Shown piece after piece: positions 911 through 19,983 of a stretch of DNA of 20,100 nt. Positions within the stretch are counted from its first letter, which is position 1; each line of letters starts with the position of its first letter. A model generated the notes under the pieces. That model was not told the DNA's origin. It did not search any database and worked only from the letters and a program-made list of their open reading frames with translations. The translations under genes and the position numbers were made by a program. The DNA lies in IMG/VR virus record IMGVR_UViG_3300010412_000103, positions 1 through 20,100 of that record. One strand, 5' to 3'. This DNA is from a virus.

Positions 911-1450
911 ATGATAAAACTCATTGGTCTATCTGGTCTTGCCCGTAGCGGCAAAGACACCACAGGCAGGTTCCTGTCTGAACTTATTGGTTGCCCGACC
1001 TATGCACTTGCATCACCAATCAAGCAAGCCTGTAACGAATTGTTTGGCTGGGATTCGCGCCATAGTGATGGTGAACTGAAAGAGGTTGCAGACCCATTCT
1101 GGGGAGTGTCGCCTCGTTATGCTTACCAAACACTGGGAACCGAATGGGGAAGAAACCTGATACGCGATGACATCTGGCTTAAACGTGCTGAGATGATGCT
1201 GGACAAACATGGTTCACTTATCGTCACTGATGTACGATTCGAGAATGAAGCCAAATGGATTCGTGACATGGGAGGCAAGCTGATACACGTCAAGCGTGAA
1301 GGCATAGAGTCCGTATTGAAACATGCCAGTGAGAATGGTGTTGCAATCCAGCCTGAAGATGTGGTACTATACAACAACTGGTCAATCGAACAGTTGAAAG
1401 ATAACTGCAAAGACTTAGTAAAACTGTTAGCTGAAGGAGCTATAAAATGA
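911..1450 (+). CDS. 1: Deoxynucleoside monophosphate kinase (T4 gp1-like)
   Basis: This 179-residue protein opens with IKLIGLSGLARSGKDTTG, a P-loop (GLARSGKDT, residues 8-16) typical of the phage dNMP kinase family, and carries the family-like segment TDVRFENEAKWI near residue 105. T4 gp1 phosphorylates dNMPs to dNDPs to feed DNA synthesis; T4 gp1 itself is longer (241 aa), so this is a compact form. The start is supported by AAGGAG about 6 nt upstream of the ATG. It overlaps the clamp gene by four bases (ATGA), so translation of the two is probably coupled. A general adenylate-kinase-like role is the main alternative, but the position in front of the replication genes favours dNMP kinase. 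Confidence 0.85.
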   Translation: MIKLIGLSGLARSGKDTTGRFLSELIGCPTYALASPIKQACNELFGWDSRHSDGELKEVADPFWGVSPRYAYQTLGTEWGRNLIRDDIWLKRAEMMLDKHGSLIVTDVRFENEAKWIRDMGGKLIHVKREGIESVLKHASENGVAIQPEDVVLYNNWSIEQLKDNCKDLVKLLAEGAIK

Positions 1451-2118
1451 GTATGAAAATTTCCAATGAAACCGTACAACTGTTGAAGAATTTTTCGACA
1501 ATCAATAACAGTATCATGCTGCGAAATGGTGAGCCTCTGTCAACCATATCAGAAGCCGGTGGCATCTATGCCAAGGCAATGATTGCAGAAAACTTCCCTG
1601 AGAATGTTGCCATCTATGACCTGTCTGAGTTCCTCAGCACATTGTCACTATTCAATTCACCTGTACTGGAATTCAGCAAGGATACCGAAAGCGAATTTGT
1701 GACCATTCGTGAAGAGAAGGGTCGCGCATCGGTTCGCTATCGTTTCACTGATGTGAACAACATCACCTACCCAGAAGAAGAACTGGAAATCCCAAGCGTG
1801 GATGCAGAGTTCTCAATCACCAAAGACCAATTGTCATCATTGCAGAAAGCCTGTTCGGTCATGCAGCTTGAAGACATTGGTATCAATGCAGATGGACAAT
1901 CCATCACTCTGGTTGCCACCGACCCGAAGAACAAGTTCAGTAACCAATATGAACTGACTGTTGGTGAAACCGAGAAGACATTCAGTCATACAGTCAAGGC
2001 AGAAAACCTGAAACTGATACTGTCTGATTACAATGTAAAAATCTCTGATGAAGGTATGCTCGAAATCAGTAACTCCGATGGAAGCCTTACATATCTGGTT
2101 GCACTTGAAGAAGCCTGA
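1447..2118 (+). CDS. 45: DNA polymerase sliding clamp (T4 gp45-like)
   Basis: This protein has 223 residues, close to T4 gp45 (228). The N-terminus MKISNETVQLLKNFSTINNS aligns by eye with the T4 clamp N-terminus (KLSKDTTALLKNFATINSG), and later NVAIYDLSEFLSTLSLFN and the C-terminal YLVALEEA match the same protein. gp45 forms a trimeric ring that tethers gp43 to DNA and, in T4, also activates late transcription. I use the ATG at 1447 because AGGAG (1435-1439) lies 7 nt upstream; the ATG at 1453 gives the exact T4-like N-terminus but a 13-nt spacing. The gene overlaps gp1 by ATGA. A 37-nt gap follows before gene 44. Confidence 0.95.
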   Translation: MSMKISNETVQLLKNFSTINNSIMLRNGEPLSTISEAGGIYAKAMIAENFPENVAIYDLSEFLSTLSLFNSPVLEFSKDTESEFVTIREEKGRASVRYRFTDVNNITYPEEELEIPSVDAEFSITKDQLSSLQKACSVMQLEDIGINADGQSITLVATDPKNKFSNQYELTVGETEKTFSHTVKAENLKLILSDYNVKISDEGMLEISNSDGSLTYLVALEEA

Positions 2119-2155: not shown

Positions 2156-3130
2156 ATGAGTATTACATTGAAGCCCAATGTGTGGGTCGATATCTATCGA
2201 CCACACAAAGTATCAGACTGCATACTACCATCCGAACCAAAGAAGTTCTTTGAGAAACTGGTTGAAGAGGGAACATTGTCTCAGTCACTTTTGCTCTATG
2301 GTAGTGCAGGAACAGGCAAGACCACAGTAGCACTCGCATTATGCGAAGAGCTTGGTCTTGACCATATGTTCATCAATGCCAGTGAAGACAATGGTATTGA
2401 TATGGTGCGTAACCAGATTCGCCGTTTCGCTACAGCCAAGAGTCTGAACACATCCAAGAAGGGAAAGGCTAAGGTCATCATTCTGGATGAAGCCGACTTC
2501 CTGAATATTAATTCGGCACAGCCTGCATTGCGTGGCGTGATGGAAGAGTTCTCGAAAATCGGATGCCATTTCATATTGACCTGTAACCATCGCAACAAGC
2601 TGATGGATGCTATCCAGAGTCGTTGTGCCAATGTGGACTTTACGATATCGTCTCAAGAGAAGAAGCATATGTTGGTGTCTTCATTGAAAGCCATCACCCA
2701 CATGCTAGACAGGGAAGGAGTCTCATATGACAAGGCTGTCATAGCCGAAGTTATCATGAAGTATTTCCCAGACCTGAGACGTTGTATACATGAGTTGCAG
2801 CGTTACTCGAAAAGTTCTGGTGGCAATATTGATACTGGCATACTATCTTCATTGAAGGATGTTCAGGTAGATGACCTGATTGAACACATCAAATCCAAGA
2901 AGTATGAATCTGTAAGGAAGTGGGTCTTTGCCGATAACCCAGACATAGACCCGTCAGTATTCTATGGTCGCCTGAGCAATGCATTGCATACCAAGCTGAA
3001 CAACCAGTCAAAGCCTATGGCAGACGTGTTGCTTGCCGACTATCAATACAAGTCCGCCTTTGTACCAGACCAACAAGTGAACCTGATGGCATTGCTTGTT
3101 GAAATCATGATGCAATGTGAGTTTGTGTGA
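2156..3130 (+). CDS. 44: Clamp loader ATPase, large subunit (T4 gp44-like)
   Basis: This 324-residue protein (T4 gp44 is 319) is an AAA+ ATPase of the RFC/DnaX class: Walker A GSAGTGKTT at residues 49-57, Walker B VIILDEAD at 107-114, sensor 1 LTCNHRNKL around 141-149 and the SRC box (155-157), whose arginine acts in trans on the neighbouring subunit. With gp62 it opens the gp45 ring and loads it at primer ends. AGGAG at 2145-2149, 6 nt before the ATG, supports the start. The stop overlaps the start of the next gene (TGATG), which fits the fixed 4:1 complex of gp44 and gp62 known in T4. Confidence 0.96.
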   Translation: MSITLKPNVWVDIYRPHKVSDCILPSEPKKFFEKLVEEGTLSQSLLLYGSAGTGKTTVALALCEELGLDHMFINASEDNGIDMVRNQIRRFATAKSLNTSKKGKAKVIILDEADFLNINSAQPALRGVMEEFSKIGCHFILTCNHRNKLMDAIQSRCANVDFTISSQEKKHMLVSSLKAITHMLDREGVSYDKAVIAEVIMKYFPDLRRCIHELQRYSKSSGGNIDTGILSSLKDVQVDDLIEHIKSKKYESVRKWVFADNPDIDPSVFYGRLSNALHTKLNNQSKPMADVLLADYQYKSAFVPDQQVNLMALLVEIMMQCEFV

Positions 3131-3525
3131 TGCCAAAATTAACTGACTACCTGACAAGCATAAACCAATCAAAGACGAACCTGATGGAAGGCGATTCGGA
3201 TGATGCCAGACAAGCCGTGAAGGAGTACCAACCATACATCATAAATCGTTGTATGGCAGGTCACCAAGATACCATCATGATTGCCAATGAGATGAACATG
3301 AGACCCTACATGAGCAAGAAAGCCCAGTATGGTTTCTATCTGGGCACAGTGAGACCAAGGAAGCGTTTTGCGCCATGGTTAAAGCCTGAGCAGGAAAAAA
3401 ATCTTGAATTAGTGAAACTGTTCTATCAATGCAGCAATACCAAAGCCAAGGATATCCTAAATATACTCACGCAGGATGATATTGAATGCATAAGAATAAG
3501 AACAGAAAAAGGTGGAAAATCATGA
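3130..3525 (+). CDS. 62: Clamp loader small subunit (T4 gp62-like, short form)
   Basis: This protein has 131 residues, against 187 in T4. The segment QYGFYLGTVRPRKRFAPWLKPEQE (residues about 60-83) resembles the conserved 'Q-x-x-F-L-x-x-x-(x)-R-x-(K/R)-R-(F/Y)-x-x-W-x-K' core of gp62, and YQPYIINRCMAGHQDTIMIANEMN precedes it as in short gp62 proteins of marine T4-like phages. gp62 has no ATPase motif; it bridges the gp44 ring. I choose the ATG at 3130, which overlaps the gp44 stop as TGATG, over the GTG one codon earlier. Position between 44 and regA is the same as in T4 (there in the order 44-62-regA). Identity rests on both the weak core motif and this synteny. Confidence 0.85.
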   Translation: MPKLTDYLTSINQSKTNLMEGDSDDARQAVKEYQPYIINRCMAGHQDTIMIANEMNMRPYMSKKAQYGFYLGTVRPRKRFAPWLKPEQEKNLELVKLFYQCSNTKAKDILNILTQDDIECIRIRTEKGGKS

Positions 3526-11655: not shown

Positions 11656-12194
11656 GTTACGCGATTTATGACCCAAAGAACCCCGACTCCTTGGCGAACC
11701 TTTTAACATTCGACGAAAGTCATGTCGACAATTCGACCGAGCCGAAAGCCAAGTATGAAGTGGGTGACACCGTTGCAATCAACGTGTATAACCACAAACA
11801 CAATGGCAAGATTTGCGTCGTCATCAAGGAAAACTATGGTTGCTATGTTGTAGAGCCATACAACGAGCCGTATTTCAATGACCCAAGGCATTTGACCAAG
11901 ATTGGTCCGCTATTGCACAGTGACTTGGTGAAGGTCAAAAAACCGAAAGGTGCGTCGACAGTCTATGTTCCTGTCGAGAAATCCAATACACTGTCACCTA
12001 TCAGTCAGTCTGAATTGCGTGATTTGGAAAGGGGCGGCAAGAAAGAAAAAGCTGAAGTCGAAAAACTGCGCGGCTTGTTCTCTGGTTCTTCTCAGGTCGT
12101 GACCAAGGTCGAGCCTGTTGCCAAGACCAAGAAAGCTGAACCCAAAAAAGTTGCATCTGGCTTGAAGTCTAAAGCCAAGAAGGTGAAAAAATGA
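11652..12194 (+). CDS. Hypothetical protein with lysine-rich tail
   Basis: This 180-residue protein has a folded-looking first part (KYEVGDTVAINVYNHKHNGKICVVIKENYGCYVVEPYN, residues about 34-72) that again reads as a small beta barrel, similar in style to the gene before it. After residue about 120 it becomes charged and low in complexity, ending in a basic tail rich in Lys, Ala and Pro (KTKKAEPKKVASGLKSKAKK). Such tails often bind nucleic acid without specificity. GGGG (11641-11644) precedes the ATG by 7 nt. It overlaps both neighbours by ATGA. Function unknown. Confidence 0.75.
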   Translation: MSYAIYDPKNPDSLANLLTFDESHVDNSTEPKAKYEVGDTVAINVYNHKHNGKICVVIKENYGCYVVEPYNEPYFNDPRHLTKIGPLLHSDLVKVKKPKGASTVYVPVEKSNTLSPISQSELRDLERGGKKEKAEVEKLRGLFSGSSQVVTKVEPVAKTKKAEPKKVASGLKSKAKKVKK

Positions 12195-12457
12195 GCAAAC
12201 TTGATTCGGGCAAGCGTTTGACTGCCCACCAAAAAGTTATACTTAACAAGTTGATTGAGTATCGTGGCGATTCGGATATCGGCTGTGCTGAATTATATTC
12301 GGCATCAACTGCCTTATTCAACAAGGCATGTTGCTATGTCTGGATTCGCAAGTGGGGCTATGAGAACCGCATCGGTCGTGGCAAGTATTCCTTGAAAGCC
12401 TTGTTGGAAATTGCCAATAAAGATGTTCCGGTCGTTAATGTGGAGGCTGTTGCCTGA
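12191..12457 (+). CDS. Hypothetical small basic protein, possibly winged-helix-like
   Basis: This 88-residue protein starts MSKLDSGKRLTAHQKVILNKLIEYRG and contains a helix-turn-like stretch (CAELYSASTALFNKACCYVWIRKWGY) followed by NRIGRGKYSLKALLEIANK. The order helix, helix, basic turn and strand is compatible with a winged helix, which would make it a candidate regulator, but this is only an impression. AAGGTG lies about 8 nt before the ATG, which overlaps the previous stop by ATGA. Confidence 0.7.
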   Translation: MSKLDSGKRLTAHQKVILNKLIEYRGDSDIGCAELYSASTALFNKACCYVWIRKWGYENRIGRGKYSLKALLEIANKDVPVVNVEAVA

Positions 12458-13795: not shown

Positions 13796-13800
13796 TGTCG

Positions 13801-13824
13801 GGGCAGCGCAATGCTGCCCTTTTT
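13801..13824 (+). terminator. Strong rho-independent terminator between convergent genes
   Basis: GGGCAGC (13801-13807) pairs with GCTGCCC (13813-13819) around the loop GCAAT, followed by five T residues (13820-13824). The T-run touches the stop codon of the minus-strand gene. It works in the + direction only; the other side has no T-run. Confidence 0.92.
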
Positions 13825-14222
13825 CATTCTGGCAATGGGAAGAATGATGCCCTGAAAGGCAACCAGACATTCCTGAATGCCGCCCAATTGTCTTGGTTCA
13901 GGACAAGCGAATTGCCATTGGCAAATTTGAAGTTCACTGGCATACCGGCAAGAACCACACTCTCGATTGACGCCAATCCCCACTGGTCTTCTGCCGTGGC
14001 TGAACACATCACGCCTTGGAATTCGATTCCCATGTTTTTCAGTGTGTCGGTATTCTCCCTGAACTCCCATGTTCCATCCGATTTGGAATAGTGGTCTGGT
14101 GATGGTCTTTCCGAAACCATTTCAATAATGTTTCCATTAATGGGTGGCTTTTCCCTTGAAATAAAAAATGTATTTGTGTTATACACTGACCAGAACCTGT
14201 TATGTAGACTAATATTATTCAT
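13824..14222 (-). CDS. Small protein downstream of the tail-fibre gene (possible fibre assembly or tip)
   Basis: This 132-residue protein is read from the minus strand. Its C-terminal part (FQGVMCSATAEDQWGLASIE, then VNFKFANGNSLVLNQDNWAAFRNVW and FRASFF) resembles the small DUF4376-type proteins that often sit next to tail-fibre genes of tailed phages. The start codon is three bases after the tail-fibre stop, with AAAGGG upstream, so both are made from one mRNA. Roles proposed for such neighbours are fibre folding or attachment to the fibre tip; I infer this from position. Its stop touches the terminator of the opposite unit. Confidence 0.75.
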   Translation of the reverse strand: MNNISLHNRFWSVYNTNTFFISREKPPINGNIIEMVSERPSPDHYSKSDGTWEFRENTDTLKNMGIEFQGVMCSATAEDQWGLASIESVVLAGMPVNFKFANGNSLVLNQDNWAAFRNVWLPFRASFFPLPE

Positions 14223-14225
14223 CTG

Positions 14226-17138
14226 TTAAACCCTTTTTTTAGCAACAACTTTAATCCTGACATAAGCACTATACACAACACCCAATGCCGGTGAACCTTG
14301 ATATGTAGCATTATTTCCCGCTAATCCATTAGCACCAGAAATCAAATATAACTGACCGCCTCCATTACCATAAGTGAATTCTGCAAGTGTTGCTGTTAGT
14401 CCATAAACGGTGGTTCCTGATGAGAAATATGCCCATCTAGGATTAACCCATCTTGAATAAAATTGATTATAGTATTGTGCCTCTACGGATAGGATATCAT
14501 AGTTTTCTAGGCTATCGCCATTTGGTGTATTTATTGCATAAAGACCATCTGACCATGTATATCCCTGATAGAAAAATGTTGATGAAGATGCAGAAGTCTC
14601 AGGAAGCGGTGTTGATGGGTTATATGGGTCAACATAAAACACAAATGGTTCATTAGTATCCCTAAGTATTTTCCTTATTTCTCCTAGTGGAGAGAATACA
14701 ACAATATCACTATTTTTAATGATTCCACCTGTACTCAACAGTGGAGCTGGCATCCCTGATACAACAAATGCCTTTCCTTCTCGTTCTGATGGATATGAGT
14801 TAATGTCAACTTCACCCGATGGCTGTGGTGCGCCAAAGAACTGGGTAAAACCGGCAGGGAACATTGGAGTTGCTGGCATTGATACGCTGGCTGCACCTGC
14901 ACTCTCAGACCAAATCAACATACCAACCCTATTAATCGTACTAAGGTCAATAGAATATTGTAATGAATAGCTGTCTATTAATGTTCCATTTTTATATAGT
15001 TTCACTAATCCATTTCCGGTATTAGTAACAGATATACCTATTTCATCCGTTGGGGAAAATGGGAAAAATGCTGGTATAGATGTTTCCGCAGATGAATCAA
15101 CAGCGGGAGGAACAACATTACCCAGTTTATAGCTTAATGGGATTTCGGGAACCTCATCTTGTCCGTCCTGCCATGATGTCGCTGCACCGAAACCATAGGC
15201 TGCACCATAAACGTAGTATATTCCTAAATTACCTTCGGTTTCTGAATAGATTCTGAGTGTGTTTGAATTCAATTGAACAGCATACCACAAACCGGCGTAA
15301 ATATCATTAAAATCCTGCCTGAAGTCTCCCCATGTGGTGTCTGGGAACATTGGGTTTCCGGTATAAGTATGATAAAATCCTCCAGCAAGAGATGAATATG
15401 CCTGTACTGTTACCTGTCCGGTAATAAAGGTTCCATTATTAATATCGCTCAAGTTAGTAAATTGTATATCAATATAGGCATGAGTTGCAGCAACTGCATC
15501 CTGTTGTTGAATAAGCAAACCGAGACCATTGGTTGGAACACCAGCATTATCAATAAACCCAAACATTACATACTCTAGGTTTTGGGAAATCATATTCTGT
15601 ATATTGACGTTAAAATAGGTTCCTTGCTCTGTCGATGATATCGGAGAGATTGGGGCAGACCAAGCAAGCTGTTTGTTACTTTCAGTTACAGTTAATGAGT
15701 TTGATGTCAGTGTTCCGTATGATGAACTACCTGAAATAATTTGACTTTCAATTAATGCTGCTGGCTCAGGTGGTGTTAAATACTCATCGGGAGTCCAGTC
15801 ATTATCTTCCACAAAGCGATAATCTTCAAATGAAAATTTTCCAGCCAAAGCCCCAACAGAATCAAATACAACATAGTCTCCATTGGATAGAAGCCCAACA
15901 GTAGATATAAGTGGATATGCCATATTATTAATCATGTAAACGGAATTTTCCCTGTCTGTTGGGTATGATGTTTCATCAACCAAACCATTTGGTAAGGCAA
16001 TTTCTGTAACAATGCTTGTACCCGCTACAACCGGTATTCCATAACCTACAGGATTTGTTATTATTTTATAATTGATAGATTCATTTGATATAGAAATCGT
16101 CGCCATTTTTTCTATTGCTGGTAAATCCAGATAGGTTGAGCCTGATATCAAGAGAACATAGTTTGAACCAACTAACCTGTACAATTCGGTTGTAACTGTT
16201 GAATCGCCATTATTCTCAACAACAAATGAATAAACTGCCTGTGGGTCATTTTCTGAAAGTGGGATTGCAGTAAAACCAATAATACCTTCATCCACCTTTC
16301 CTATGCCATTCACGGTTCTTGGTAGTGAAATGAGTTCGAAATTATCTCCATTGGTAAATGACCCTATGAAAGTAATTTCATCATTTATGGTCAAATTATT
16401 ATCCGGTGAAAGGGCTATTGTATAATCAACACCGTATATCAATGGGGAAGTTTTTGATGGGTCTTGTGTGATATTGTATACTGCTACAGTATCAACATTA
16501 TATACACTTTGGAAAATTTGTCTGGTTTCATTATTTTGAACCACATTAAATAGTTCACTATTTCCTCCAGAATCATGACTATGAGCAGCAAATAAATTTC
16601 TCCCAATGCCAGTAAATGCTTCTTCGGGAAAGTTGACATTTTCAGCAAAGCCTATATAAATATATGAAAATTGAGATGTTGCTGGTACTCCACCAACAGG
16701 AAACGTATAGTAGATTGCCTTTCTTTCCCCAACAGGAAAATAAGGTGCCCCACTGGATTTTACCCTTGGATAACCGGTAATATATGGATAATCTGTAACG
16801 ATATCATCATAATTGGTAAGATGATTGACCGTTAATTCTCTGACTTCACCCGTTGCACCAATTGGTGTTTGTGTTGGTGTGATATTCTGTTCAATGGGTT
16901 CCCATAAATCTTTTGCAAAACCGCCAGAACCGCCTCCACCACCAGAAACAGTTTCCCATGAACCTGATGTTGCCCTGTGGCTTAAGCCAGTATCCTCTGC
17001 AATGAATATGGCACCTTCTTCTATACCCACCGGAGTCAATGGAAGAGTTGAACCACTGATGATGAGTGTTGAGCCTGAACCGTCTATGTGCTGGATTCGG
17101 ATGCCGGTCTTCGGGATTTTAAATGCTTGTTCTGTCAT
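14226..17138 (-). CDS. Large tail-fibre or adhesin-type protein with duplicated module
   Basis: This 970-residue protein has no enzyme motif and reads as a beta-rich virion surface protein: many Thr, Ser, Gly, Asn and Tyr, few Cys, no signal peptide. The N-terminal 75 residues (FKIPKTGIRIQHIDGSGSTL and so on) end in a flexible linker GGGGGSGG, suggesting a particle-binding head followed by a shaft or receptor-binding part. A segment near residue 387 (VDETSYPTDRENSVYMINNM) returns near 777 (VDINSYPSEREGKAFVVSGM), each followed by PL-x-ST-x-G and a D-x-VVF element, showing an internal duplication. Likely role: host recognition; this is inferred from composition, size, late promoter and the small neighbour. 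The gene lies opposite to all others and looks more AT-rich. The C-terminus ends in RIKVVAKKRV. Confidence 0.75.
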   Translation of the reverse strand: MTEQAFKIPKTGIRIQHIDGSGSTLIISGSTLPLTPVGIEEGAIFIAEDTGLSHRATSGSWETVSGGGGGSGGFAKDLWEPIEQNITPTQTPIGATGEVRELTVNHLTNYDDIVTDYPYITGYPRVKSSGAPYFPVGERKAIYYTFPVGGVPATSQFSYIYIGFAENVNFPEEAFTGIGRNLFAAHSHDSGGNSELFNVVQNNETRQIFQSVYNVDTVAVYNITQDPSKTSPLIYGVDYTIALSPDNNLTINDEITFIGSFTNGDNFELISLPRTVNGIGKVDEGIIGFTAIPLSENDPQAVYSFVVENNGDSTVTTELYRLVGSNYVLLISGSTYLDLPAIEKMATISISNESINYKIITNPVGYGIPVVAGTSIVTEIALPNGLVDETSYPTDRENSVYMINNMAYPLISTVGLLSNGDYVVFDSVGALAGKFSFEDYRFVEDNDWTPDEYLTPPEPAALIESQIISGSSSYGTLTSNSLTVTESNKQLAWSAPISPISSTEQGTYFNVNIQNMISQNLEYVMFGFIDNAGVPTNGLGLLIQQQDAVAATHAYIDIQFTNLSDINNGTFITGQVTVQAYSSLAGGFYHTYTGNPMFPDTTWGDFRQDFNDIYAGLWYAVQLNSNTLRIYSETEGNLGIYYVYGAAYGFGAATSWQDGQDEVPEIPLSYKLGNVVPPAVDSSAETSIPAFFPFSPTDEIGISVTNTGNGLVKLYKNGTLIDSYSLQYSIDLSTINRVGMLIWSESAGAASVSMPATPMFPAGFTQFFGAPQPSGEVDINSYPSEREGKAFVVSGMPAPLLSTGGIIKNSDIVVFSPLGEIRKILRDTNEPFVFYVDPYNPSTPLPETSASSSTFFYQGYTWSDGLYAINTPNGDSLENYDILSVEAQYYNQFYSRWVNPRWAYFSSGTTVYGLTATLAEFTYGNGGGQLYLISGANGLAGNNATYQGSPALGVVYSAYVRIKVVAKKRV
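14664..14810 (-). repeat. Protein-level repeat, copy 2, in the tail-fibre gene
   Basis: Codes for VDINSYPSEREGKAFVVSGM, then PAPLLSTGGIIKNSDIVVFSPLGE (residues about 777-825). It shares with copy 1 the pattern VD-x-x-SYP-x-(D/E)-RE, M-x-x-PL-x-ST-x-G and D-x-VVF-x-x-x-G. The DNA of the two copies has diverged, so the duplication is old. Confidence 0.72.
15838..15980 (-). repeat. Protein-level repeat, copy 1, in the tail-fibre gene
   Basis: Codes for VDETSYPTDRENSVYMINNM, then AYPLISTVGLLSNGDYVVFDSVGA (residues about 387-434). The distance to copy 2 is 390 residues, so the repeated unit may be as large as 350-390 residues, with the conserved part at its end. Confidence 0.72.
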
Positions 17139-17185
17139 GCCAGTATGCCTGTATTAATGAGTATTTCCTGAAAGTATTTATCAGG

Positions 17186-17193
17186 TATTTATA
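17186..17193 (-). promoter_or_regulatory. T4-type late promoter for the tail-fibre unit
   Basis: On the minus strand the sequence is TATAAATA, the T4 late consensus. T4 geometry places the box at -13 to -6, giving a start near 17180 and a leader of about 42 nt before the fibre ATG. A variant GATAAATA lies just downstream on the same strand (17182-17175). This promoter class is read by the gp55 sigma factor with gp33 and the gp45 clamp. Confidence 0.72.
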
Positions 17194-17197
17194 AATA
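17190..17197 (+). promoter_or_regulatory. T4-type late promoter for the right-hand gene cassette
   Basis: TATAAATA on the + strand, overlapping the minus-strand box by four bases so that 17186-17197 is the perfect palindrome TATTTATAAATA. The expected start near 17203 gives a 32-nt leader before the ATG at 17235. I find no other exact TATAAATA in the window on either strand. Confidence 0.72.
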
Positions 17198-17234
17198 ACC
17201 ATATCTACTTATCTATCCTTTCTTTGGGGTCATA

Positions 17235-18443
17235 ATGAAATCGTTCAATCAAGTTATAAAAGAAAATACCTATCTTGCCGAAGGTGGAAATGTCATCGTC
17301 AATGACAAGAAGGGTAATGTTATCCCCGCCGAAAAGATTGACATGGTGAAATTCAACAGAACCACATTTGTCAATGACATGACCAATGCATTCCTGAAGC
17401 TGAATGACATGTTCGAAGCGATTTATGGATATCCCATCTGGAAAAACAAGTCTGTACTAACCACAGGCATGGCGTTTAATGGAAGTTCCGATGTCATGTT
17501 CTCCAAGCAGGTCAGTGACGAGGACTTTATGAAAGTCAAACCGAAGGTCGGTGACATAGACCTTACTGTTCCTGATGAAATGAAAAGACCGCTATGGGAA
17601 TTCCTGAAAAAGATTCAGGGCAAGAAAATTACACCCAATGTGACCTATGTCGGAAACAACCGACCAAACTATTCACCAAGCAATGCCCAGATAAACTCTG
17701 TCTTTGAATATCGCCTTGGAAAAGAAAAGGTACATGCACAGGTTGACTTTGAATTGACACCGTATATGAATAACCTGCCATCGGAGTTCACAAAGTTTGC
17801 CCACAGTTCGGCATGGAACGACATGAGTGCCGGAATCAAGGGGGTGCATCACAAGTATCTAATGCGAGCCATGATAGGTGGTTCATCTATCCGCGAAGAT
17901 ATCGTGATTGCAACAAACACATCGACCCCAGAAAAGTTCAAGCAGTCGATGAACAAGACCAATCTGGTGCCATACCTGTTGAAGTTCTCTGTCGACAGAG
18001 GTGTTCGTGTTGCGTATCAGGCACAGTTTCTGCCAAGCGGAAAGCCATGGATGGAAGGCGGAAAACATGTCTACAAGGAAACCCCGACATCCGATTCGAC
18101 CTATGAACAGAACCTGACCAATATCTACAAGATGGTCTTTGGTGAACCCCAGAGCAAGGCAGACATTCAGGAGATGTGGTCATTCCTCGGATTGATTGAC
18201 CTTATCAAGAAACACCACACCAAGAAGCAAATTCAAGCCACACACGACAAGCTGATTGAACAGTATTGGGGAAGAGGTTCACAGGGATTCGAAAGAAACA
18301 ATCCAGAACTGGACAAACAAATCAAGTTAGCTGCCTATAATTTATTCATCAAGGCGTTTCCATTTGTAAAAAATGAAGCCAAACAGAAGAAGATGATGGA
18401 TGAATTCTATAAGAACTACCGTGTCACGGAGATAAACGTATAA
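17235..18443 (+). CDS. Nucleotidyltransferase-like protein with capsid-targeting-type leader
   Basis: This 402-residue protein begins MKSFNQVIKE|N, a leader ending in I-x-E like the T4 capsid-targeting sequence MKTYQEFIAE that the gp21 prohead protease removes. The body shows a pattern of the polymerase-beta-type nucleotidyltransferase fold: FNGSSD (GS at 83-84), VGDIDLTVP (D107, D109) and a third acid in AQVDFEL (D171). The gap between GS and DxD is longer than usual, so the assignment is tentative. GVHHKYLMRAMIGG (about 203-216) and a helical C-terminus follow. The SD is GGGG about 8 nt before the ATG. First gene after the late promoter; its stop overlaps the next start (TAATG). Substrate unknown; host tRNA, nucleotides or proteins are possible. 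Confidence 0.72.
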   Translation: MKSFNQVIKENTYLAEGGNVIVNDKKGNVIPAEKIDMVKFNRTTFVNDMTNAFLKLNDMFEAIYGYPIWKNKSVLTTGMAFNGSSDVMFSKQVSDEDFMKVKPKVGDIDLTVPDEMKRPLWEFLKKIQGKKITPNVTYVGNNRPNYSPSNAQINSVFEYRLGKEKVHAQVDFELTPYMNNLPSEFTKFAHSSAWNDMSAGIKGVHHKYLMRAMIGGSSIREDIVIATNTSTPEKFKQSMNKTNLVPYLLKFSVDRGVRVAYQAQFLPSGKPWMEGGKHVYKETPTSDSTYEQNLTNIYKMVFGEPQSKADIQEMWSFLGLIDLIKKHHTKKQIQATHDKLIEQYWGRGSQGFERNNPELDKQIKLAAYNLFIKAFPFVKNEAKQKKMMDEFYKNYRVTEINV

Positions 18444-19432
18444 TGATAAAATTCAAAGACTTGACAGAAAGCCTAAGCCTGAATGAATCAAAGACTCTTG
18501 ATGACATCAAGTCTATGTTGAAGAAGGCTATGAAACTGAAGGAAAGTGACTTCAAGGTCATCTCGAACAATAGGATTGCTGTCCTGACCGACAACAATCG
18601 CATCAAGACCATGGAACAAATTGCCAACCTTCTGGTTCCTATCGGATGGAAATGGAATCGAACCACAAAAATTTCATCCATTGGTCATTTGGAACTTGAG
18701 GAAGCAGTTATTCTCGTCAAACCAAAATCCAAACAGGGAAGCCTGTCTGCTGGTCTTGATAATGAAGCAAGGCTTGTTGGTGGAATAAACCAAGCCATCA
18801 TCCTGAATGGTGGTTCACTGGATGTCGTGTTTTCTTCGGGAAGAAACAAGGCACACTATACCGGAATAAAGAAGGCTGTTCAGGTTGGTTCAGATACTGC
18901 CAATAGAAAGAAGGCAGACCTTTTGCTTATTACTGAAAAAGGAAAGCAAATTCCAATAAGCCTGAAAAAAGACAATGCCAATATGTGGGAATCTGCTGAT
19001 AACCTATGGGGATTGACTGCCAACAAATTCATCAACAAACTGGTTCAGGAAAACAAAATCAAACTGGAACGCCAGAATGCTGGTCACTTCAAGATATCGC
19101 CTCAATTTGCTGTTAAGGCATCGCCGACCGAAGTCAAGGAAATTGTCTTTGGTTCAGATATCCTTTCCGGAAAGGGTTGCGTTATTGAGAGAACTTTTGT
19201 CGAAAAAGACTTTGAGTACGTTGCAGCAAAGAACCAAGTGGTCATTCAATGTTCGGCTATCATAAAATCTGTAGATGATATTCCAGCCAGTGCAACACCA
19301 TGGTTCCTTATCAGGAATGATTCAAGCCGACACAATCCGGCAATAGGCTATACCGGATTAAGGGTGTTGGCTGTCTATCAGGAAAGGATAAATCAAACTG
19401 TATTGAAAGTCCATCGCAATCTGGTGAAATAA
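18443..19432 (+). CDS. PD-(D/E)xK-like nuclease candidate with capsid-targeting-type leader
   Basis: This 329-residue protein starts MIKFKDLTE|SLSLNE|S, offering two (L/I)-x-E cleavage sites (after residues 9 and 15). Residues 16-95 form a small leading domain. From residue 100 the order GLDNEARLV (E108), NRKKADLLLI (D159) and IPISLKKDN (S173, K175) fits the PD-(D/E)xK nuclease core with E in the first helix and an SxK in place of ExK, as in some restriction enzymes. If real, it would cut DNA inside the host, or act on the host genome or incoming competitors. The C-terminal third is beta-rich and unassigned. GGAG lies 11 nt before the ATG, which overlaps the previous stop. A catalytically inactive relative cannot be excluded. 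Confidence 0.7.
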   Translation: MIKFKDLTESLSLNESKTLDDIKSMLKKAMKLKESDFKVISNNRIAVLTDNNRIKTMEQIANLLVPIGWKWNRTTKISSIGHLELEEAVILVKPKSKQGSLSAGLDNEARLVGGINQAIILNGGSLDVVFSSGRNKAHYTGIKKAVQVGSDTANRKKADLLLITEKGKQIPISLKKDNANMWESADNLWGLTANKFINKLVQENKIKLERQNAGHFKISPQFAVKASPTEVKEIVFGSDILSGKGCVIERTFVEKDFEYVAAKNQVVIQCSAIIKSVDDIPASATPWFLIRNDSSRHNPAIGYTGLRVLAVYQERINQTVLKVHRNLVK

Positions 19433-19983
19433 TGAAAAACTTTAAATCATTTACGCAACTCATTGAAAGCGTTAAACTTGCAACGATGGATGACCTGAAA
19501 AAGCACAAGGGCGTATATATATTTGTGATGGGTGGCAGTGCATCCGGAAAGAACTATTGGGCTGAGAAACATCTAGGGAACCTTAAACTGGTCGACACCG
19601 ATGCCGTGGTGAAAGACATTATGAAGCCCGAAGATGACCCAAGGAAACTGGTGAGTACCGCCATTGCCATCGTGAACAAGGAGATTGACAAATCCATTGC
19701 CAAGGGTATCAGTTTTGTTCAGACAGGAACCGGAGCCAACTACAAAGGTCTGTATAACAGGCTTGCGAGGGCGAAGGAAGCTGGCTATACGACCGCACTT
19801 GTATTGATAGATACTGACCCACAGTTAGCCATCAAACGTAATGCCGAGCGCGTAGCCGCAGGTGGGCATGGGGCAACACTGGAACCAGAAAAGATAATCA
19901 GAACAAACCGTTACGCCAAAGAGAACTATATACTCTTATTGAAATCCGGTATAGTTGACATTACCATGAAGGTTAAGCAATGA
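19432..19983 (+). CDS. Zeta-toxin-like P-loop kinase with capsid-targeting-type leader
   Basis: This 183-residue protein starts MKNFKSFTQLIE|SVK, with an L-x-E cleavage-type site after residue 12. The body is a small P-loop kinase: Walker A GGSASGKN at residues 34-41, an acidic pair LVDTDAVV (D55, D57), FVQTGTGANYKG (95-106), AGYTTALVLIDTDP (117-130) and a basic lid with R136, R140 and GGHGATLEPEKI (144-155). This arrangement resembles zeta toxins and related polynucleotide-kinase-like proteins; zeta toxins phosphorylate UDP-GlcNAc. Walker A ends in N rather than S/T, which is unusual and could reduce metal binding. No antitoxin gene is seen beside it. It overlaps both neighbours (TAATG before, ATGA after). 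Confidence 0.78.
   Translation: MKNFKSFTQLIESVKLATMDDLKKHKGVYIFVMGGSASGKNYWAEKHLGNLKLVDTDAVVKDIMKPEDDPRKLVSTAIAIVNKEIDKSIAKGISFVQTGTGANYKGLYNRLARAKEAGYTTALVLIDTDPQLAIKRNAERVAAGGHGATLEPEKIIRTNRYAKENYILLLKSGIVDITMKVKQ

Follow-up and report, generated by a model that had tools for sequence, protein, structure and literature searches.

The late promoters of bacteriophage T4 have no -35 element and are transcribed by the gp55-polymerase, which is activated by gp45, the orientation of gp45 setting the direction of transcription (PMC2988020); the late box occupies positions -13 to -6 (PMC1524935). A late box of the form NATAAATA has been proposed for the cyanomyovirus S-PM2 (PMC2984593). The closest described counterpart of the locus considered here is the junction of baseplate genes 26 and 51 of T4, where two opposed boxes overlap within a short head-to-head gap. 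Divergent transcription of T4 base plate genes from overlapping promoters was reportedly described by Scarlato et al. in Virology in 1989. The 4/53 and inh/segE gene pairs of T4 resemble the present locus in having close opposed late boxes in a divergent gap but differ in that the boxes are crossed, the plus box lying upstream of the minus box (offset -14 to -15), and are not fused. The predicted starts at these two pairs (3350-3372 and 38022-38043 of the extracted T4 stretch) nearly coincide.

The window, that is, the whole stretch of 20,100 nucleotides analysed here, is a 20.1-kb viral contig fragment that carries a T4-type replication block consisting of gp45, gp44, gp62, RegA, a family-B polymerase, a RecA/UvsX-like protein and a DnaB-like helicase. 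The polymerase (gp43) is nearest to those of cyanomyoviruses, with about 47% identity. The features that are relevant for the argument are as follows.

1447-2118, plus strand: gp45-type sliding clamp, the late activator in T4
2156-3525, plus strand: gp44 and gp62 clamp loader
13800-13820, plus strand: hairpin resembling a terminator, where the rightward replication-gene unit ends and ahead of the apparent late units
13824-14222, minus strand: 132-aa DUF4376-like ORF, separated by 3 bp from the end of the fibre-like ORF
14226-17138, minus strand: 970-aa putative fibre-like virion protein, its identity suggested by the neighbouring ORF
17175-17182, minus strand: second candidate late box GATAAATA, predicted start 17169
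17186-17197, both strands: palindrome TATTTATAAATA, two fused, opposed putative late boxes
17186-17193, minus strand: late box TATAAATA of the leftward unit, predicted start 17180
17190-17197, plus strand: late box TATAAATA of the rightward unit, predicted start 17203
17235-18443, plus strand: 402-aa Pol-X-like nucleotidyltransferase with a putative N-terminal packaging leader, MKSFNQVIKENTYLAE followed by GGN
18443-19432, plus strand: 329-aa phrog_12709 protein of unknown function with a leader-like N-terminus, LNE followed by S
19432-19983, plus strand: 183-aa AAA_33/zeta-type P-loop kinase-like protein with a leader-like N-terminus, LIE followed by S

The palindrome is perfect over its 12 letters and consists of two opposed TATAAATA boxes that overlap by 4 bp and have the central TATA in common. 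It lies in the head-to-head gap of 96 bp (17139-17234, 69% AT) that separates the leftward fibre-like ORF from the rightward nucleotidyltransferase ORF, with 37 bp between the plus box and its start codon (17197 to 17235) and 47 bp between the minus box and its own (17186 to 17138). The palindrome, the two boxes with their overlap and the 96-bp gap between divergent genes had all been claimed in the sequence-only reading, and the starts it predicted are the same as those obtained by placing the box at -13 to -6. The statement that the window contains no other exact late box was wrong: a third exact TATAAATA occupies 16655-16662 of the plus strand, within the fibre-like ORF and antisense to it. 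Also missed was the minus-strand GATAAATA in the same gap, which sits 11 bp, or one turn, beyond the minus half of the palindrome. Altogether, the window contains 6 NATAAATA boxes; 3 of these are non-coding, and all 3 fall within the 96-bp gap, the non-coding DNA of the window totalling 1157 bp.

We consider TATTTATAAATA to be, in all likelihood, a bidirectional T4-type promoter dependent on gp55 and gp45, with two overlapping back-to-back late boxes. Several traits of T4-type late promoters are found here, namely, TATAAATA on both strands, no paired -35 element, and gp45, gp44 and gp62 encoded in the same fragment, as is the trait of the 26/51 type, two opposed boxes that overlap within a short head-to-head gap. 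Neither gp55 nor gp33 is among the ORFs scanned in the 20.1-kb fragment. The fragment also lacks structural genes whose late class is known, so the box consensus applied here is that of T4-type phages and is not independently established for this lineage. We infer that the boxes are used, that transcription starts at the predicted sites and that the phage possesses gp55.

Support for this interpretation comes from recurrence. Twelve T4-superfamily genomes (2.28 Mb) contain 8 copies of the 12-mer and none of the backward-read control ATAAATATTTAT, which is not fully neutral, being itself a palindrome that contains both boxes in crossed order. All 8 annotated copies are located in divergent gaps between head-to-head genes. 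The T4 copy (NC_000866, 116450-116461) lies between genes 26 and 51, which are 50 bp apart, and RB69 and Acj9 have the identical 12-mer at the same junction. T4 thus shares with the present locus the identical 12-mer, head-to-head late genes, a short gap and an adjoining minus-strand GATAAATA, but the flanking genes there encode baseplate proteins, in contrast to the fibre-like unit and packaged-enzyme cassette found here. At the same junction, the sequence is TATTTTATAAATA in RB49, nearly a copy, and TATTTAAATA in 44RR, where the palindrome is shorter; both have drifted, yet their boxes still overlap. Identical 12-mers between head-to-head genes are also present in the Vibrio phages pv27 (3 copies, at 1471, 11240 and 12462) and SRILMA (2 copies, at 118845 and 120068), in gaps of 63-70 bp; unlike in the window, there are several copies per genome and the flanking genes are others, mostly portal, head-closure and adaptor pairs, with one hypothetical pair. 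These two phages encode a homologue of ORF 17235 as well, but it lacks the packaging leader and is located away from the palindrome. An extra minus-strand NATAAATA box, at a distance of 9-11 bp from the palindrome's minus half, is found in the window (17175-17197), in T4, as GATAAATA (42442-42462 of the extracted stretch), and in pv27, as AATAAATA (1461-1482).

The exact palindrome is absent from S-PM2, P-SSM2, KVP40, RB43 and CP220; S-PM2 shares with the window the core octamer NATAAATA (PMC2984593) but, like P-SSM2, differs in lacking the exact palindrome. In IMG/VR, 15 stretches have the palindrome with a ribosome site on either flank, and ORFs are present on both sides in 11 of them, compared to 1 of the 7 backward controls; near-duplicates account for several of these 15, of which about seven are distinct. 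They include two gene 4/53 pairs and one stretch in which a portal gene flanks the palindrome on one side. The 14 IMG/VR contigs that encode the closest relatives of the polymerase contain no exact palindrome, and IMG/VR yielded no second copy of the 96-bp gap. Fifty IMG/VR contigs, mostly with relatives of ORF 17235, contain one copy of the palindrome and two of the backward control, indicating no enrichment outside T4-type phages. The palindrome precedes none of the ORF 17235 homologues, some of which are preceded by a single late box: NATAAATA occurs at -20 to -60 in 8 of about 70 loci, compared to 1 on the opposite strand. Comparison with T4, RB69, Acj9 and the Vibrio phages lends good support to the claim of a divergent, overlapping T4-type late promoter.

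Several other explanations of the palindrome can be considered. In an AT-rich gap such as this one, TATTTATAAATA might have arisen by chance; order-1 and order-2 Markov models both give an expectation of about 0.0016 occurrences per strand for the window, its frequency in base-shuffled copies of the gap is 8e-5, and it recurs elsewhere in the same context, so that this explanation deserves hardly any credence. We give equally little to the idea that the site serves a dimeric DNA-binding protein as its operator and is not a promoter at all, for which the perfect two-fold symmetry would speak, although the window has nine perfect 12-bp palindromes, so that symmetry by itself is common; both halves match the late octamer exactly, and the recurrence is bound to divergent late genes. 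It is very improbable that the site is a host sigma-70 -10 element, TATAAA, that directs early or constitutive divergent transcription. The match to TATAAT is 5 of 6 letters, but a sigma-70 scan detected no -35/-10 pair involving the boxes of the palindrome, the single match between 17000 and 17400 being away from the boxes and at chance level, and both flanking units appear to be late.

A somewhat more serious alternative, albeit still an unlikely one, is that the palindrome works one way only, towards the rightward cassette, the fibre-like unit being transcribed from GATAAATA at 17175-17182 or from elsewhere, and that the minus-strand TATAAATA is there only because the site is palindromic. 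In its favour, GATAAATA, which is 36 bp from the start codon of the fibre-like ORF, obeys the NATAAATA rule. Against this, in T4, RB69, Acj9 and Vibrio phages the identical palindrome separates divergent genes, and in RB69 and Acj9 no second NATAAATA is present near it in the gap. Under the favoured bidirectional reading, GATAAATA may instead add to transcription of the fibre side.

Both flanking units look to be of a type made late in infection. The product of ORF 17235 is likely a nucleotidyltransferase, given the match of its predicted fold (mean pLDDT 90) to family-X polymerases, at a middling Z of about 8; residues G83-S84, D107, D109 and D171 are invariant in the 20 relatives compared. 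In this ORF (17235-17290) and many of its relatives, a leader ending in (L/I)xE immediately precedes an invariant GGN (MKSFKTFIIE, MISFKTFLLE and MKLSELMFILE in relatives, each followed by GGN), and other relatives begin directly at MGGN, the would-be processed end. The T4 prohead protease, gp21, cleaves according to the (L/I)xE rule. The leaders of ORF 17235 and its relatives have the look of the T4 capsid targeting leader with a site of the prohead-protease type, and internal proteins of T4 are packaged via such a leader (PMC3012670). This suggests that the nucleotidyltransferase enters the capsid and that the prohead protease cuts it back, leaving a free GGN end. The two ORFs that follow, 18443-19432 and 19432-19983, also start with leader-like peptides, MIKFKDLTESLSLNE and MKNFKSFTQLIE, respectively, each ahead of S, and accordingly the three enzymes of the cassette may be injected together. 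A late promoter ahead of this cassette would support late expression of capsid-carried enzymes.

On the leftward side, searches of phages, Pfam, PHROGs, PDB and IMG/VR gave no homologue of the fibre-like ORF, so that its late class is proposed from its surroundings, and its single-sequence fold prediction has a pLDDT of 31. The 132-aa ORF downstream has a relative in a Vibrio phage, a DUF4376 protein placed after a large protein with a carbohydrate-binding domain, and by inference the pair 14226-17138 and 13824-14222 fits a fibre and its partner. The DUF4376-like ORF also hints at a Vibrio-like or marine host.

The following mechanism can be envisaged. Late in infection, RNA polymerase with a gp55-type sigma factor would bind the 8-bp box in either orientation, assisted by the gp45 sliding clamp. 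In the plus orientation, transcription would start near 17203 and proceed into the packaged-enzyme cassette (17235-19983); in the minus orientation, it would start near 17180, and perhaps also near 17169, and proceed through the fibre-like unit (17138-13824). The two orientations would be mutually exclusive on a given DNA molecule at a given moment, and with many replicating genomes, both units would be expressed. That two polymerases could not bind at once, as was originally proposed, follows from the geometry, but such exclusion is not special to the palindrome, given that the 4/53 and inh/segE pairs of T4 also have crossed opposed boxes. The accompanying suggestion of a fixed ratio between fibre and enzymes finds no support because in T4 the direction is set by the orientation of gp45 and because the minus side here has a second candidate box.

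Very probably, then, the window provides another example of the fused divergent late promoter already known from T4, extending that arrangement to an uncultured phage of the T4 superfamily. The same 12-bp solution recurs at differing gene pairs, including 26/51, portal/head closure, 4/53 and, in the present case, fibre/enzyme cassette, and this recurrence offers a simple test of whether the orientation of the clamp divides transcription between the two directions at one symmetric site. Speculatively, clamp orientation, that is, which strand carries the 3' end, would provide a natural rule for the direction taken at such a symmetric site. A further step, which we consider unlikely, is that evolution has repeatedly arrived at the fused palindrome as a two-way switch in which the strand of a nearby 3' end decides which late unit is transcribed; if so, the ratio of fibre to packaged enzymes would be tied to fork direction, both here and in T4-type phages generally.

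Two additional observations concern the surroundings of the locus. The hairpin at 13800-13820 (GGGGCAGC..GCTGCCC-TTTTT) is strong and terminator-like and closes the replication-gene unit. A second contig, 12.4 kb long and with an identical polymerase, reaches beyond the left end of the window. On it (877-2112), the AAA ATPase that the window start truncates is extended to an ORF of 411 aa, the N-terminal part of which resembles the small ORF at 12191-12457 of the window.
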